Below are positions 16,484 to 22,569 of a DNA stretch of 64,000 nucleotides, one piece after another. Location of the stretch: assembly GCF_035593305.1 (NCBI RefSeq), contig NZ_CP141615.1, forward strand, positions 1,054,001-1,118,000. The letters are read 5' to 3'. The position numbers were made by a program, and so were the translations under genes. Within the stretch, counting starts at the first letter, position 1, and each line of letters starts with the position of its first letter. The notes beneath the pieces were generated by a model. The model did no database searches and had not been told where the DNA came from. It worked only from the letters and a program-made list of their open reading frames with translations. The DNA is from Limnochorda sp. L945t. Lineage in GTDB: Bacteria > Bacillota > Limnochordia > Limnochordales > Geochordaceae.

Positions 16484-16716
16484 TGGTCTCCGACGTCTAC
16501 TACACCGTGCTTCCCGTCAGTCTCGAGGCACCTGCGGGCGACGGCGGCCCGTTCGCCGCGCAGCGGCATGAAGTGCTGATCGGCCACTGGGGCGGCGTAC
16601 CGGTCTGGGTCGAGCTGCTGCACCACGCCGACGGGCGGTGGCGGGTCCAGCGCCTCATCACCACCGCCGCCGAGCTCTACCTCTGGCCTTCCCTCTTTCC
16701 CGGCACCCCTTGGTGA
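16480..16716 (+). CDS. YlzJ-like small protein
   Basis: 78 residues, starting [12 protein letters not shown] after a short lead and ending in YLWPSLFPG. The pattern matches the small YlzJ family, whose gene follows tepA and precedes spoIIIE in B. subtilis. Function is unknown. The GTG at 16480 overlaps the tepA stop (GTGA); ATG 16483 is an alternative. The expected ftsK/spoIIIE gene does not follow; a sensor kinase does, marking a break in conserved order. Confidence 0.7.
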
Positions 16717-16722
16717 AGCCCA

Positions 16723-16751
16723 TCACAATCCTGTTATCTGCGTGTTATAAT
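16723..16751 (+). promoter_or_regulatory. Candidate promoter of the sensor-kinase operon with 11-bp direct repeat
   Basis: TATAAT at 16746-16751 with TCACAA 17 bases upstream (16723-16728, three of six matches to TTGACA). TGTTAT occurs at 16732 and again at 16743, exactly 11 bp apart and overlapping the -10 box, which could be a response-regulator site. The kinase start is 37 bases downstream. Confidence 0.4.
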
Positions 16752-16787
16752 CGAGCCGCGGACGACCGGAGGCGGGTGCAACGGGCC

Positions 16788-18458
16788 ATGAGACCGTGGG
16801 ATCGGCTGGCGGTGCGCCTGCTGGGCAGCGTAGCGGCCGTGGCCCTGTTCATGAGCCTGGCGAGCTTCGGCTGGGACGCATACCGCCAGCGCGTCCAGGC
16901 GGAGCTGACGCTGACCGAGCGGGCGCGGGCCGTCACGAAGCAATTCCTGGCGGTGCGGTCCTTCGTCGCTCAGGCGGAGACGGAGAGGGTGGCCGTCAAC
17001 CCTGCGGGGTTCCATCACCTGGATCCGGTCGTCGTGGCCCGGGTGGTGGGAGAGATCTTCGGTTCCAGTTCGGCGGCCCGGGTCCGGGAGGTATGGATGG
17101 GCTCCGAGCGGGCATCCCACGTGCCCGACCCGGTCGAGGAGCAGGCGCTCAGGCGCTTCTCCGCCGACCCGGCCGCCACGGAGTTCGCCGCGGTGCTGCC
17201 CGACGGTGGGCACGGGCCCCGGGTCTTCCGGTACGTCGCGCCCATCCATCTCGAGCAAAGCTGCCTGACGTGCCACCAGCAAAGTGCCCTCAGCACCGGG
17301 CACGATCGGCCGCCGGCCGTGGGCGACCTCATGGGGGCGTTGAGCATCCAGGTGCCCATCGAGGAGTTCGAGGCGGGCGTCGCCTCCTCCATCCGCAGCC
17401 GGCTGCGCTTCACGCTCCTGCTCACGGCGCTGTCGCTTTCGGTGCTGGCGGTGTTGCTGCGCCGCCAGGTCACGTCTCCCCTGGGGCAGCTCACCGCAAT
17501 GGCGTCCCGCTTCGCTACGGGCGACCTCACGCCCGCTCCCCTGCCGAAGGGCGCGGTCGGAGAGACGGCCGTGCTCGCCTCGGTCATGAACTCCATGGCC
17601 GGAGCCTTGCGGGAGCTGTACGCCGACCTCGAGGCCAAGGTCGAGGAGCGGACCCGCAAGTTGACCGAGGCCAACGCGCGCCTGCAGGAAAAGCAGGTCG
17701 AGCTCGAACGGGCCCAAAAGCTGCAGTCGGAGTTCCTGGCCACCGTGTCGCACGAGCTGCGTACCCCGCTCACCTCCATCCTGGCCTTCACGGAGCTGTT
17801 GAGCGAGGAGGGGGCGACCGCGGACAGCGACCAGGTGCGCGAGTACCTGACCGACATCCGGGAGTGTGCGCAGCGGCTGTACGAGCAGATCAACGATCTG
17901 CTCGACCTGGCCCGCATCGAGGCCGGGAGGATGCAGCTCGACCGCACGGTCTTCGACGTACGCTTGGCCGTCGAGGCCACCTTGCGGCGCATCGAGCCCA
18001 TGGCTGCTCGCAAGGGCCTCGAAGTGCGCCGGCCGGCGCAGGCGCAGCCGGTTTGGGTGGAGGCCGACCGCGTCCGGGTGGAGCAGGTCCTCATGAACCT
18101 GCTCTCCAACGCCGTGAAATTCACCCCTCGCGGCCACGTGGCGGTGGAGCTCGAGGAACCTGGCCCTGAGGAGCCCATGGTGCGGGTGAAGGTCCGGGAT
18201 ACGGGCATCGGCATCCGGCCAGAGCACCACGGCATCATCTTCGAGAAGTTCCGGCAGGTGGACAGCTCGGCCAGCCGGGAATATCCGGGCTCGGGGCTGG
18301 GGCTGGCGCTGGCCCGGCACCTGGTGGAGATGCACGGCGGGCGCATCTGGGTCGATTCGGAGCTCGGCAAGGGCAGCACGTTCACCTTCACGCTGCCCGC
18401 CCCGCCACGCGCCCCGGTCGGCGCGAGGCCGCAAGCAACACCGGAAGGCCGGAGGTGA
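16788..18458 (+). CDS. Membrane sensor histidine kinase with c-type haem motif (DUF3365/Tll0287-like)
   Basis: 556 residues. TM1 is about 8-25 and an extracytoplasmic sensor domain about 26-205. TM2 is about 208-226, followed by HAMP, a coiled coil, HisKA with His322 in VSHELRTP and an ATPase domain ([25 protein letters not shown]). The sensor contains CLTCH (Cys159, Cys162, His163), a covalent haem c attachment motif in the context typical of Tll0287-like domains, so redox, oxygen or NO sensing is likely. Its response regulator follows after 10 bases. ATG 16788 is chosen; GTG 16776 is possible. It occupies the place of ftsK/spoIIIE in the conserved order. Haem binding is inferred from the motif. 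Confidence 0.88.
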
Positions 18459-18468
18459 TCCGTTCGAC

Positions 18469-19275
18469 GTGGACTCCGAACGCATACTCGTCGTCGACGA
18501 CGAACCGCACATCCTCAAGGCGGTGAGCCACCGCCTCGAGCGTTCGGGCTACCAGGTGGAGGTAGCGGCGGACGGGGAAGAGGCCCTGGAGAAGTTCGAC
18601 CGTTTCCGGCCCGACCTGGTCGTGCTCGACCTGATGCTGCCGCGCCTCGACGGCTACGAGGTGTGCCACGCCATCCGGGAACGGTCCAACACGCCCATCA
18701 TCATCCTCTCGGCCCGCAGCGAGGAGCCCGATCGCCTGACCGGCTTCTGGTTGGGAGCGGACGACTACCTTACCAAGCCCTTCAGCCTCGCGGAACTGGT
18801 GTTGAGGATCCAGGCGGTGCTGCGCCGGGCCCGCCCCGATCCCGGCGTCGAACGCGCAGGCGCCTCCGCTGCGGGCGAGCGGCCCGACACAGGAGCGACC
18901 GAGGGCGGCGCGCCGGCAGCGGGCACGGAGCAGGTGCTCCACTTCGAGGGGCTCACGATTGACCGGCAGTGCCGCATGGTGTGGCGGCGGGGGCAGCCGG
19001 TGGATCTCACCGCCAGGGAGTTCGACCTCTTGTGGCTGCTCGCGAGCCACCCCATGGTGGTCTTCACCCGGGACCAGATCCTCGATCGAGTGTGGCAAAG
19101 CGATTACGCGGGGGATCTCGCCAACGTGACGGTCTGCATCAGCCGGTTGCGGGAAAAGCTCGAGGAGGATCCCCTGGCCCCGCAGTTCATCCAGACGGTG
19201 CGCGGGGTGGGCTACCGGTTCAGGGCCCGGCCCATCCGCCCGGGGTCGCCCGCGCCTCAAGTGCCGGCCGTGTGA
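18469..19275 (+). CDS. OmpR/PhoB-family response regulator
   Basis: 268 residues. The receiver has the acidic pair Asp10-Asp11, phospho-acceptor Asp54 (VVLDLMLP) and the conserved Lys in DDYLTKPF. A Gly/Ala-rich linker (about 125-160) joins a winged-helix DNA-binding domain (TAREFDLLWLLASHP, ISRLREKL, VRGVGYRF). An excellent GGAGGTGAT lies nine bases before GTG 18469. It is the obvious partner of the upstream haem-type kinase. The array of 11-bp-spaced GCAA repeats just downstream, ahead of the iron-sulfur protein gene, is the natural candidate for its binding site. Confidence 0.92.
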   Translation: MDSERILVVDDEPHILKAVSHRLERSGYQVEVAADGEEALEKFDRFRPDLVVLDLMLPRLDGYEVCHAIRERSNTPIIILSARSEEPDRLTGFWLGADDYLTKPFSLAELVLRIQAVLRRARPDPGVERAGASAAGERPDTGATEGGAPAAGTEQVLHFEGLTIDRQCRMVWRRGQPVDLTAREFDLLWLLASHPMVVFTRDQILDRVWQSDYAGDLANVTVCISRLREKLEEDPLAPQFIQTVRGVGYRFRARPIRPGSPAPQVPAV

Positions 19276-19371: not shown

Positions 19372-19475
19372 GCAATGTTCCGGCAAACCACGTGCAAGTG
19401 CAGCGCAGGGTAACGGCAAGCCTCTATTCCTAGCATTGTAAGCGGACAGCAAGAGTCTTACAGGGCTCTTGCAGC
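19372..19475 (+). repeat. Array of 11-bp-phased GCAAN direct repeats (candidate regulator operator)
   Basis: GCA(A/G)N elements start at 19372, 19383, 19394, 19405 and 19416, all exactly 11 bp apart. In the same register are GTAAG at 19438, GCAAG at 19449, ACAGG at 19460 and GCAGC at 19471; only the 19427 slot is blank. OmpR/PhoB-family regulators typically bind tandem half-sites with 11-bp periodicity. The array fills the 224-base gap between the response-regulator gene and the HybA-like gene, ending 25 bases before its start. It is visible directly; the binding function is inferred. Confidence 0.6.
19449..19472. repeat. Inverted repeat within the operator-like array
   Basis: GCAAGAG (19449-19455) and CTCTTGC (19466-19472) form a perfect 7-bp inverted repeat with a 10-base loop. 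It places the GCAAG element on both strands close to the start of the HybA-like gene and could be an RNA hairpin or a dyad operator. Confidence 0.4.
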
Positions 19476-19499
19476 GCGGCCGACAGGGAGGGACGGGGC

Positions 19500-20438
19500 T
19501 TGCCCACCGAGGTGCGCGGCGCGAGGACGTGTCCCCTCTTGAGCCGGCGGGCCCTGCTGGCCGGCGGGGCCGGGGCCGTGGCGGCGGGCCTTTCGGGGAG
19601 CCTCGCCGTGCCGGCGCTCGCTTCAGATCCGGCGACGGGCGGCGACGGCAGCTTCGGGATGCTGGTCGACCTCACGGAGTGCGTCGGATGCCGCAGCTGC
19701 GTCTACGCCTGCCAGGAGGCCAACGGGTGGACCGGTGACCCGGAGCGCCCGGCGATCGACGGCGATCAGTGGACGGCGGTCCGGGAGGTGGAACTGCCGG
19801 GAGACCCGGGCCACGTCCGCTACGTACGGACCCAGTGTTTTCACTGCCTCGACCCGGCTTGCGCTTCGGCCTGCCCCGTGGGGGCCCTGCACAAGACCCC
19901 CGAGGGCCCCGTGGTCTATGACGCCGGGCGCTGTATCGGCTGCCGGTACTGCATGGTCGCCTGCCCGTTCCACATCCCCCGCTACCAGTGGGAAACCCCG
20001 CTGCCCCTCGTGGCCAAGTGCATCATGTGCGCCCCGCGTCTCGAGCGGGGCGAGTCGCCCGCCTGCGCCGAGGCGTGCCCGACGGGGGCGACCACCTTTG
20101 GACGGCGCTCCGAGCTCATCGCCGTCGCGAGGAAGCGCATCGCCGATCACCCTGACCGGTACGTGCCCCGCATCTACGGGTTGACCGAAGCGGGGGGCAC
20201 GTCGTGGCTGTACCTGTCCGACGTGCCGTTCGAAGAGCTGGGCTTCGCCTCGGTGGGCAGCACGCCCCCGCCTCAGAAGACCCAGGCGGTCATGGAGAAG
20301 GTGCCCGTGGTCGCCGTCGGCGTGGCCGCTCTCATGGCCGTCGTGCGGTGGTGGGAGGGCGCTCGAGAGAGCCGGGACGAGGCCCGGGACGCCCGGGAGC
20401 GGGCCGGCACACCATCCGGAAAGGAGCCCGGAGCATGA
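19500..20438 (+). CDS. Tat-exported four-cluster ferredoxin-like protein, HybA-like
   Basis: 312 residues. A twin-arginine signal (SRRALLAGG, cleavage after PALA) precedes an iron-sulfur domain with CVGCRSCVYAC, CFHCLDPACASACP, CIGCRYCMVACP and CIMC plus CAEACP groups, enough for four [4Fe-4S] clusters. A hydrophobic C-terminal helix (about 262-280) resembles the anchor of HybA. In Hyb, Dsr and Qrc complexes such subunits carry electrons between a periplasmic catalytic subunit and a NrfD/HybB membrane protein. Here no catalytic subunit is adjacent. TTG 19500 follows cagggaggga. The stop overlaps the next start (ATGA). Confidence 0.9.
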   Translation: MPTEVRGARTCPLLSRRALLAGGAGAVAAGLSGSLAVPALASDPATGGDGSFGMLVDLTECVGCRSCVYACQEANGWTGDPERPAIDGDQWTAVREVELPGDPGHVRYVRTQCFHCLDPACASACPVGALHKTPEGPVVYDAGRCIGCRYCMVACPFHIPRYQWETPLPLVAKCIMCAPRLERGESPACAEACPTGATTFGRRSELIAVARKRIADHPDRYVPRIYGLTEAGGTSWLYLSDVPFEELGFASVGSTPPPQKTQAVMEKVPVVAVGVAALMAVVRWWEGARESRDEARDARERAGTPSGKEPGA

Positions 20439-21661
20439 AAGCGGAGGCGCGGTGGATTCCCGGCAGGTCGCGGGAGCGCTCGACGACCGAGAAGCTCGTC
20501 GAGCTCGGCTGGGGGCGCCTGGCGCTTTGGGCGCTGGCCCTGACCGGAGGCCTGGCCATGGTCTACCGGCTCGTCCGGGGCCTGGGGGCCACGACCCATC
20601 TCAACGACGCCTGGCCCTGGGGATGGTGGATCGCCTTCGACGTCATGGGCGGCGTCGCCCTGGCGGCCGGGGCATTCGTCGTGGCGGCCTGGGTGCACCT
20701 GTTCGGCAAGCATCGTTATGCGCCGCTGGCCCGCCCGGCGGTCTTGACGGGGTTTCTCGGATACCTGATGGTGATCGCCGGCCTGTTGATGGACCTGGGG
20801 CGGCCGTACCGTATCTGGCACCCGATCGTGATGTGGCAGCCCCATTCGGTGATGTTCGAGGTGGCCTGGTGCGTGATGGTCTACACGACGGTGCTGGCCT
20901 TCGAATTCAGCCCCGTCGCGCTGGAGGGACTGGGGTGGCACCGAGCATGCCGGGCCGTACGCCGGGCGCTGGTTCCGATGGTCATCCTGGGGGTGGTGTG
21001 CTCGGTGCTGCACCAGTCGTCGCTGGGCAGCCTGCTGCTCATCGCCACGTACCGCATGGATCCCCTCTGGTACTCCCCGCTGTTGCCCGTGCTCTTCTTC
21101 GTCTCGGCCGTGGCGGCCGGGCTCGGCATGATCCAGCTCGAAGCCGCGGCGGCAAGCCGGGTCTACCGTCACCGGGTCGAGCCGGAGCTCGTCGAGGGGC
21201 TGGCCCGGGGCATGGCCTGGATGCTCGCGCTGTACCTGGCGCTGCGGCTGGGCGACTGGGTGAGCCGGGGCCAGGGGCCCTGGACGCGGCCGGTATCGCT
21301 GGAGAGCGTGGCGGCCGGACTGGAGGTCCTCGTGGGCGCAGCGTTGCCGGCCCTGGTCATGAGCCGTAAGAGCTGGAGGCAAAGCGCCCGGGCCCGCCTC
21401 GTGGCGGCCGGGTTGGCCGTGGTGGGCGTCATAGCCAACCGCATCGACTCGGTGCTGGTCTCCATGCGGGCGGGCGCCGGCGCCGCGTATGTGCCTTCCT
21501 TGCTGGAGCTGTGGGTTACCGGAGCCATCGTGGCTGCGGGCGTGCTGGGCTACGACTGGGTAGCCCGGCACTGGCCGCTGTTCGTCGAGGAGCCGGAAGC
21601 GCTGCCAGGGGAGGCGAGAGCTCAGGAAAGCCGCCGGCCGGTAGGGGTGACGGCGTCATGA
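20435..21661 (+). CDS. HybB/NrfD-like polytopic membrane protein
   Basis: 408 residues, very hydrophobic, with about ten predicted transmembrane helices. The segment WPWGWWIAFDVMGGVALAAG, the later VLHQSSLGSLLLIA and the C-terminal ELWVTGAIVAAG are typical of HybB-type quinone-reactive membrane subunits (NrfD superfamily). It likely exchanges electrons between the quinone pool and the HybA-like protein encoded upstream, with which it overlaps by four bases. ATG 20435 has aaggagcccggagc upstream. Direction of electron flow and partner enzyme are unknown. Confidence 0.9.
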   Translation: MKAEARWIPGRSRERSTTEKLVELGWGRLALWALALTGGLAMVYRLVRGLGATTHLNDAWPWGWWIAFDVMGGVALAAGAFVVAAWVHLFGKHRYAPLARPAVLTGFLGYLMVIAGLLMDLGRPYRIWHPIVMWQPHSVMFEVAWCVMVYTTVLAFEFSPVALEGLGWHRACRAVRRALVPMVILGVVCSVLHQSSLGSLLLIATYRMDPLWYSPLLPVLFFVSAVAAGLGMIQLEAAAASRVYRHRVEPELVEGLARGMAWMLALYLALRLGDWVSRGQGPWTRPVSLESVAAGLEVLVGAALPALVMSRKSWRQSARARLVAAGLAVVGVIANRIDSVLVSMRAGAGAAYVPSLLELWVTGAIVAAGVLGYDWVARHWPLFVEEPEALPGEARAQESRRPVGVTAS

Positions 21662-22569
21662 CGGGGGCGTCGGGGCCGGCGCCGGCCCAGGAGGTTTCCT
21701 GGGGGCCATCCCCACGGGTGCTGCTGCTGGGATTCCGGCTCGAAGAGGCGAGCGAGTTCGTGCCGCTGCTCTCCCGGTTGGGCTTCCGGATCGAGATCGG
21801 GGCCGAAGGGAGACTGGACGTCGCCCGAGGCGTACCCGGCGTGCGCGACATCCCGGGAGCCCGAGCCGAGCGGATGGGATTCGACGTCTGCCCCGCGGAA
21901 GCGGACCTGGCCCTGGTCTATCTCGAGCAGCCAGAGTCGCAGGCGCCGCCGTTGATCGACTGGCTGTCCCGGAGGTGGGGCATGCCGGTGGTCGTGCTCT
22001 CCGACGACGCCCGCTGCTCGGCCCGCATCGCGACCCTGCGGGCGGGGGCCGAGGATTACGTGTGCCGGCCCTTTTCGGCATCAGAGCTGGCGCTGCGGCT
22101 GCGGGCCATTTACCGGCGCACCGGGCCACGCCGGGCAGGATGCCCCCAGGGCGCGCCCGGCCGGCCCGGGACGGGCCCCGGCACGGCCCGGGTGGGCGAC
22201 CTGGTGCTCGACCGCACCAGCCGGCTCGCCTTCCTCGGCGGGAGGGAGATTCCCCTCACGGGACGGGAGTTCGACCTGTTATGGCTGCTCGCCTCGCACC
22301 CCGGGCGAGTCTTCAGCCGGGAGGAGCTGCTGCTGCGCCTGTGGGGCGACGAGGAGGCCGCCTCCGAAGAGAGCGTGACGGTGCTCATCAGCCGGCTGCG
22401 CGCGAAGCTGCGGATGGCGGGCTCGTGCTGCACCCTCCGGATCCGGGCGCTGTGGGGCGTGGGCTACCGGCTCGAGAGCGAGCGGGGCGCGCTCCGGAGG
22501 GCTGCCGTGCCGGATCACCGGGCCGCCGTGCCCGCGCCAAAGCGGCCGGCTCTGCTCCGGGCACAATAG
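21658..22569 (+). CDS. Winged-helix regulator with degenerate (pseudo) receiver domain
   Basis: 303 residues. The C-terminal domain is a clear OmpR/PhoB winged helix (TGREFDLLWLLASHP, LISRLRAKL, GVGYRLE) and closely resembles the regulator encoded at 18469-19275. The N-terminal domain has the receiver outline, but the acidic pair is replaced (VLLLGFRLEEA), the phospho-acceptor position is Tyr88 (LVYLEQP) and the switch Lys is Arg (EDYVCRPF). It is therefore unlikely to be controlled by aspartyl phosphorylation. The ATG overlaps the HybB-like stop (ATGA), so it is co-translated with the redox module. A signal other than phosphate, or dimerisation with the partner regulator, is inferred. Confidence 0.85.
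   Translation: MTGASGPAPAQEVSWGPSPRVLLLGFRLEEASEFVPLLSRLGFRIEIGAEGRLDVARGVPGVRDIPGARAERMGFDVCPAEADLALVYLEQPESQAPPLIDWLSRRWGMPVVVLSDDARCSARIATLRAGAEDYVCRPFSASELALRLRAIYRRTGPRRAGCPQGAPGRPGTGPGTARVGDLVLDRTSRLAFLGGREIPLTGREFDLLWLLASHPGRVFSREELLLRLWGDEEAASEESVTVLISRLRAKLRMAGSCCTLRIRALWGVGYRLESERGALRRAAVPDHRAAVPAPKRPALLRAQ

Follow-up and report, generated by a model that had tools for sequence, protein, structure and literature searches.

Several described systems share features with the locus analyzed here. At phoA, the sites for PhoB extend over the -35 region (PMC3348028). ArcA sites, which have been footprinted, consist of two to five direct repeats with an 11-bp center-to-center spacing and are bound cooperatively (PMC3798270). 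On the sensory side, c-heme sCache domains fused with signaling modules behave as nitric oxide sensors, and the stand-alone domains look redox-related (PMC12889525). Limnochordia isolates encode nitric-oxide reductase, one of them has nitrous-oxide reductase, and a [NiFe] hydrogenase is present in one isolate and absent in another (PMC11456536).

We analyzed a stretch of 64,000 nucleotides (the window) of the Limnochorda sp. L945t genome (G000). Five GCA(A/G)N boxes were found at 11-bp spacing in the 224-bp gap between an OmpR/PhoB-type response regulator, RR1, and a HybA/HybB-like operon which ends with a second regulator of this type, RR2 (Table 1). This array is very probably a multi-box operator for RR1, possibly shared with RR2, which would serve in class-II activation of hybA-hybB-RR2 and of other genes preceded by matching arrays.

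Table 1. Features of the array locus, with positions in the window
Feature	Position	Strand	Basis
Kinase promoter: Crp/Fnr-like dyad GTGA-N6-TCAC, then TATAAT	16713..16751	+	Layout shared with kinase genes of G001, G002 and G004
Membrane histidine kinase: Tll0287-like (sCache_heme), HAMP, HisKA, HATPase_c; CLTCH at 17262-17276; likely start ATG 16788	16788..18458	+	Pfam; CxxCH conserved
RR1, response regulator of the OmpR/PhoB type, receiver intact; binder proposed here	18469..19275	+	Domain search, sequence comparison
Proposed operator, an array of five GCA(A/G)N boxes spaced 11 bp apart: GCAAT 19372, GCAAA 19383, GCAAG 19394, GCAGG 19405, GCAAG 19416	19372..19420	+	Sequence; in-register conservation in three related genomes
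-10-like element TAGCAT, separated from the last GCAA by 11 bp	19431..19436	+	GCAA-N11-(T/C)ANNNT shared by the nine arrays
5'UTR inverted repeats: TGTAAG (19437-19442)/CTTACA (19457-19462); GCAAGAGTC (19449-19457)/GGCTCTTGC (19464-19472)	19437..19472	+	Sequence; supposed downstream slots fall inside
GGGAGGG, resembling a ribosome-binding site, ahead of the TTG start codon of hybA	19486..19492	+	Sequence; stretch also conserved in G002
hybA1, HybA/HmcB-like ferredoxin-type electron-transfer protein	19500..20438	+	Domain/family profiles
hybB1, HybB/HmcC-like NrfD-family membrane subunit	20435..21661	+	Domain/family profiles
RR2, OmpR/PhoB-type regulator, receiver without phospho-acceptor Asp; recognition helix as in RR1	21658..22569	+	Domain search, sequence comparison

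Reading of the sequence confirmed the five boxes listed in the initial annotation, which had described them as 11-bp direct repeats of the OmpR/PhoB kind, flanked by two such regulators and upstream of a HybA/HybB-like operon; all of this is supported by our data. With at least two direct repeats at ~11 bp, the array has the layout of the OmpR/PhoB-type direct-repeat operators, and no second match of this kind was present in the window. The 224-bp gap was shuffled 20,000 times with dinucleotides preserved. A run of five GCA(A/G) elements at period 11 never appeared; the maximum run at this period was three (in 27 shuffles) compared to five in the real gap, and when eight alternative periods were considered, the maximum was four, in 4 of the 20,000 shuffles, with none at five.

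We further compared the hybA gaps of a genome of the same species (G072), of another genus of the family (G002, whose HybA is 70% identical to that of the window) and of another family of the order (G004, whose RR1 is 65-71% identical to RR1 in two alignments), and found the motif retained in all of them. Five boxes were present in G072, six in G002 (GCAAG, GCAAG, GCAAG, GCAAC, GCAGG, GCAAG) and six slots, four of them exact, in G004 (GCAAT, GCAAG, GCCAG, GCAAT, ACCAC, GCAAG). Across these orthologous gaps the register of the boxes was constant and the six-base spacers had changed freely, as is characteristic of DNA that a protein contacts once in each helical turn. The relatives with arrays are few, related genomes. 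A scan of public genomes with the Fe-S protein gave distant relatives alone, from other phyla and with best segments of no more than 52% identity, which were not used for footprinting.

It is scarcely credible that the array reflects chance, a decayed tandem duplication or protein-free phased DNA bending. Intrinsic bends also need a helical-turn period, but the shuffles and orthologs exclude chance, a decayed tandem repeat would leave similar spacers whereas those here are mutually unlike, and these explanations are at odds with in-register conservation next to diverged spacers, recurrence at other promoters and dependence on the presence of RR1.

The gene order kinase - RR1 - array - hybA - hybB - RR2 was common to G002 and G004. 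In a further relative, G001, RR1 is unlinked from hybAB, and the array at both hybA promoters is degenerate (GCAAG, GCAAG or GCAAT, GAACG or GAAGG, GTAAG, GTCAG) and lacks a clear -10 at the usual spacing, which counts against the operator model. The two hybA promoters of this genome, together with the N-terminal regions of the genes, are near-identical and located ~7 kb apart (L096, G001:1311000-1327000); in its middle part, the second hybA seems to be incomplete or divergent.

The arrays also had a fixed position relative to a -10-like element. We tabulated nine arrays with 43 boxes, and all nine ended in GCAA-N11-(T/C)ANNNT. In the hybA gaps, the hexamers found 11 bp after the last GCAA were TAGCAT (G000 and G002), TAGGAT (G072) and TAGAAT (G004). 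Eight of the nine arrays were found by searches which did not include a -10 in the pattern; the remaining one, that of a second hybA gene (hybA2), was found with a pattern already containing it. We estimate that A and T would occupy the two fixed positions by chance in ~2% of cases per array in DNA of ~71% G+C, some arrays being orthologous and thus not all independent. The same spacing is seen just upstream of E. coli phoA (GTCA-N11-TATAGT) and pstS (GTCA-N11-TATTTT), in which TATAGT and TATTTT are presumably the -10 elements. Because of this match, the array appears to sit where the -35 would be in a promoter activated in the manner of PhoB. No good -35 hexamer was present at array-bearing promoters, and boxes in place of the -35 combined with a fixed distance from the last box to the -10 are the features of PhoB-style class-II promoters. 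The last box would lie in the -35 region, 11 bp from TAGCAT, so that the bound regulator could substitute for the poor -35 and recruit RNA polymerase, as PhoB does. Activation is what we infer from this geometry. An array filled cooperatively over the -35 might instead block RNA polymerase, a mode of action that ArcA shows at many promoters; the boxes do cover the -35 region, and multi-repeat 11-bp ArcA sites serve repressed as well as activated operons (PMC3798270). Yet a repressor would tolerate varied positions, whereas 9/9 arrays keep a constant 11 bp to the -10, equal to the distance at PhoB-activated phoA and pstS, and a good -35 hexamer is missing, making repression improbable.

According to the initial annotation, the array continued in register at 19438, 19449, 19460 and 19471, so that nine of ten slots were occupied, with only 19427 empty, and a cooperative operator wrapped the whole promoter. 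This extent was overstated. The occupancy holds as 5/5 for the upstream slots, whereas the downstream ones read GTAAG, GCAAG, ACAGG and GCAGC, with one exact GCAA among four and no two adjacent slots matching GCA(A/G), and 19427 falls in the spacer in front of TAGCAT. A ten-slot operator thus appears very unlikely, even if GTAAG at 19438 and GCAAG at 19449 keep the register and G002 also has GTAAG and ACAGG. The equivalent slots are GTAAG, GCACG, ACAGG and ACAAC in G002 and AAGCC, CATGG, AAGGT and CGTCT in G004; none is conserved in G004, at the hybA2 promoter or at a G002 hydrogenase promoter, and the other arrays also stop before the -10. The array itself leaves 11 bp to the -10-like element, like the sites at promoters activated by PhoB, and therefore resembles an upstream activator site.

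The degenerate downstream slots are part of an inverted repeat. Its dyad TGTAAG-N14-CTTACA, which spans 19437-19462, was also present in G002, where it is extended to a perfect hairpin with 9-bp arms (TGTAAGCGG-N8-CCGCTTACA); G004 had another stem, TGCAAGGTG/CACCTTGCA, in a position of its own. We interpret this element as a stem-loop in the 5' part of the messenger or as a site for another factor. An RNA switch was considered and set aside, since folding of the 5'UTR was at best weakly better than that of shuffles (z-scores of -0.48, -1.94 and -0.85) and the sequence differs in each lineage. An Rfam search of four array-bearing loci revealed no RNA family.

The same arrangement was found at other promoters. 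A search of G000 for boxes, spacing and -10 with at most two mismatches gave exactly three matches, compared to none for a reversed control pattern: the promoters of hybA1, of a second hybA-hybB pair and of a 46-aa microprotein. The product of hybA2 (G000:162297-163109) is 64% identical to that of hybA1, and its promoter contains six in-phase slots (GCAAG, GCAAG, GCACG, GCAAG, GCCAG, GCCAG) followed by N11 and TAGGCT. The microprotein promoter has four boxes, then TATACT, and orthologs of the microprotein in G001 and G002 are preceded by a four-box promoter of the same kind. A search for three exact boxes, with no -10 required, covered G000 and five relatives and yielded additional arrays, which likewise terminate in GCAA-N11-(T/C)ANNNT; three exact boxes at 12-bp spacing, used as a comparison pattern, occurred at control level. 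In G002, a five-box array was located before a cbiM-like gene, genes for the small and large subunits of a [NiFe] hydrogenase and a maturation-protease gene, and in G004 a three-box array precedes an ORF of at most 63 codons with a hydrophobic C-terminal half and no cysteines. We also looked for arrays before the hydrogenase operons of G000 and G004 and found none there; both operons have their own cytochrome-b-like gene. Among 73 genomes of the class, searched with at most one mismatch, the five carrying RR1 had 10 matches vs. 0 for the control pattern, and the 68 without RR1 had 13 vs. 9, i.e., background.

Several matches were excluded from the array table as possibly due to chance: a three-box site with one mismatch before a rhodanese-like secreted protein (G004:C1:380780), single matches in G072:C4 and G002:C182, and those in RR1-lacking genomes. 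Between the array and the cbiM-like gene of G002 (L139, G002:C184) there is a GC-rich leader of ~285 bases, in which a structured RNA is conceivable; no Rfam family scored above threshold in it. The microprotein (L004, G000:2699372-2699509, minus strand) is hydrophobic, membrane-located, conserved and probably unannotated, contains a CGxxC and a CxxC pair, and was detected with good scores in the four genomes of the family only.

RR1 adjoins the array and was present in every array-bearing genome, and the excess of matches over controls was restricted to RR1-carrying genomes. Because array occurrence follows RR1, we favor it as the main, signal-dependent binder. Its score is below the PhoB equivalog cut-off. 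Eight OmpR-type DNA-binding domains are encoded in the genome, and the recognition helix VTV(C/L)ISRLR was found in RR1 and RR2 but in none of the other six; VicR, a homolog with a solved structure, has VDVTVRRLR at this position. By inspection, the phospho-acceptor position of RR2 is occupied by Tyr here and by Trp in G002, and the G004 counterpart is intact; the pseudo-receiver thus seems to have arisen within the family. As RR2 shares the unusual helix and its gene belongs to the operon that follows the array, it could itself be the main binder, with the array acting as a phosphorylation-independent feedback site. This is unlikely, since RR1, not RR2, is next to the array and accompanies it in all genomes, and G001 combines an unlinked RR1 with an intact four-box microprotein array, with RR2 undetected in the hybAB and RR1 regions that were read. 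With RR1 as the preferred binder, RR2 is a plausible second reader of the boxes.

The kinase encoded upstream of RR1 matched PF11845 (Tll0287) with an E-value of 1.5e-18, alongside HAMP, HisKA and HATPase_c. The CLTCH-bearing domain lies between two membrane segments (assigned by eye), and the CxxCH motif was conserved in G001, G002 and G004. Fusion of a CxxCH domain with HAMP and kinase modules places the protein among the sCache_heme (Tll0287) kinases. Because the partner kinase carries this c-heme sensor, its input is, by analogy, probably nitric oxide or redox state. The dyad in the kinase promoter suggests that the two-component system may itself be under Crp/Fnr-type control. Ahead of ATG 16788, the reading frame of the kinase contains 50 further open codons (window 16638-16788); because the promoter sits inside this open stretch, a start placed automatically at 16638 would be incorrect. 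A Crp/Fnr-like dyad of the same kind was also observed directly upstream of hybA in G007, which does not have RR1.

The products of hybA1 and hybB1 scored below the equivalog cut-offs for HybA, HybB, HmcB and HmcC, and neither these scores nor linkage to hybO/hybC would place them with HybA/HybB of hydrogenase 2. The hybA-hybB-RR2 operon contains no catalytic subunit. The sole related large subunit found in G000 (2262019-2263671) is encoded beside a cytochrome-b-like gene and has no array.

Taken together, we propose that each GCAAG-like box would be read by one DNA-binding domain. Boxes one helical turn apart would align tandem monomers on one face of the DNA, and two or three dimers could therefore bind cooperatively. 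The input would come from the membrane kinase, with its extracytoplasmic c-heme sCache domain sensing nitric oxide or redox state, and the output would comprise the hybA-hybB-RR2 operon and, via matching arrays, the second hybAB pair and the 46-aa membrane protein. It is tempting to extend this scheme, with little confidence, to a small regulon controlled by the nitric oxide- or redox-responsive c-heme kinase via arrays of 3-6 boxes, in which HybAB modules (and, in one relative, also a [NiFe] hydrogenase encoded apart from them, along with a CbiM-like metal transporter) would be coupled to a Cys-pair microprotein that feeds back on the kinase, and phospho-blind RR2 would read the same boxes and latch the response.

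Such a two-component regulon has apparently not been reported, and it would be situated in a little-studied lineage, Limnochordia. Its operator follows a precise rule that can be searched for: GCAA boxes recur every 11 bp, and 11 bp separate the last one from TANNNT. A transcription start (at ~19443, ~7 bp after TAGCAT) is predicted, as are specific targets for a kinase of the newly recognized c-heme sCache class. The occurrence of HybAB modules and, in one relative, of a hydrogenase operon in one putative regulon may also hint at the partners of electron-transfer subunits that lack a catalytic subunit.

Compared to known systems, the locus most resembles the Pho box of E. coli phoA and pstS, with 11-bp direct repeats replacing the -35, the last GTCA (E. 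coli) or GCAA (here) exactly 11 bp before a -10-like hexamer, and an OmpR/PhoB-type DNA-binding domain. It differs in the box, which is GCAAG-like and not CTGTCAT, in the number of boxes (3-6 vs. the usual 2-4), in the recognition helix VTV(C/L)ISRLR and in the signal, which, judging by the kinase domain, is not phosphate. With targets such as hybAB, the microprotein and the G002 hydrogenase operon instead of phosphate genes, the set falls outside the PhoB regulon proper. ArcA shares multi-repeat 11-bp direct-repeat sites and a role in control of respiration, but has another box sequence, and up to six boxes, a fixed -10 distance and a c-heme sCache kinase in place of ArcB are specific to the system described here. 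The kinase has the Tll0287-like domain with CxxCH, membrane segments, HAMP and kinase modules of sCache_heme (DUF3365/Tll0287) sensor kinases (PMC12889525); nitric oxide binding was reported for a signaling-associated member of that family and would apply here by analogy, and the operator and regulon are additions proposed here. HybA/HybB of hydrogenase 2 and HmcB/HmcC likewise pair a ferredoxin-type subunit with an NrfD-family membrane subunit, but here the scores are sub-equivalog and the operon is without a catalytic subunit. MgrB-type microproteins (PMC8404706) are similar in size (47 aa for MgrB, 46 aa here) and in apparent two-component control, and no sequence similarity is apparent; feedback on the kinase is speculative here, and the G004 ORF is devoid of cysteines. 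Multi-box 11-bp sites are thus already known, and what is new is the box itself, the presence of up to six repeats, the PhoB-like fixed position and the inferred set of targets. The agreement in spacing with the E. coli promoters activated by PhoB suggests that this activation geometry is a widespread one.
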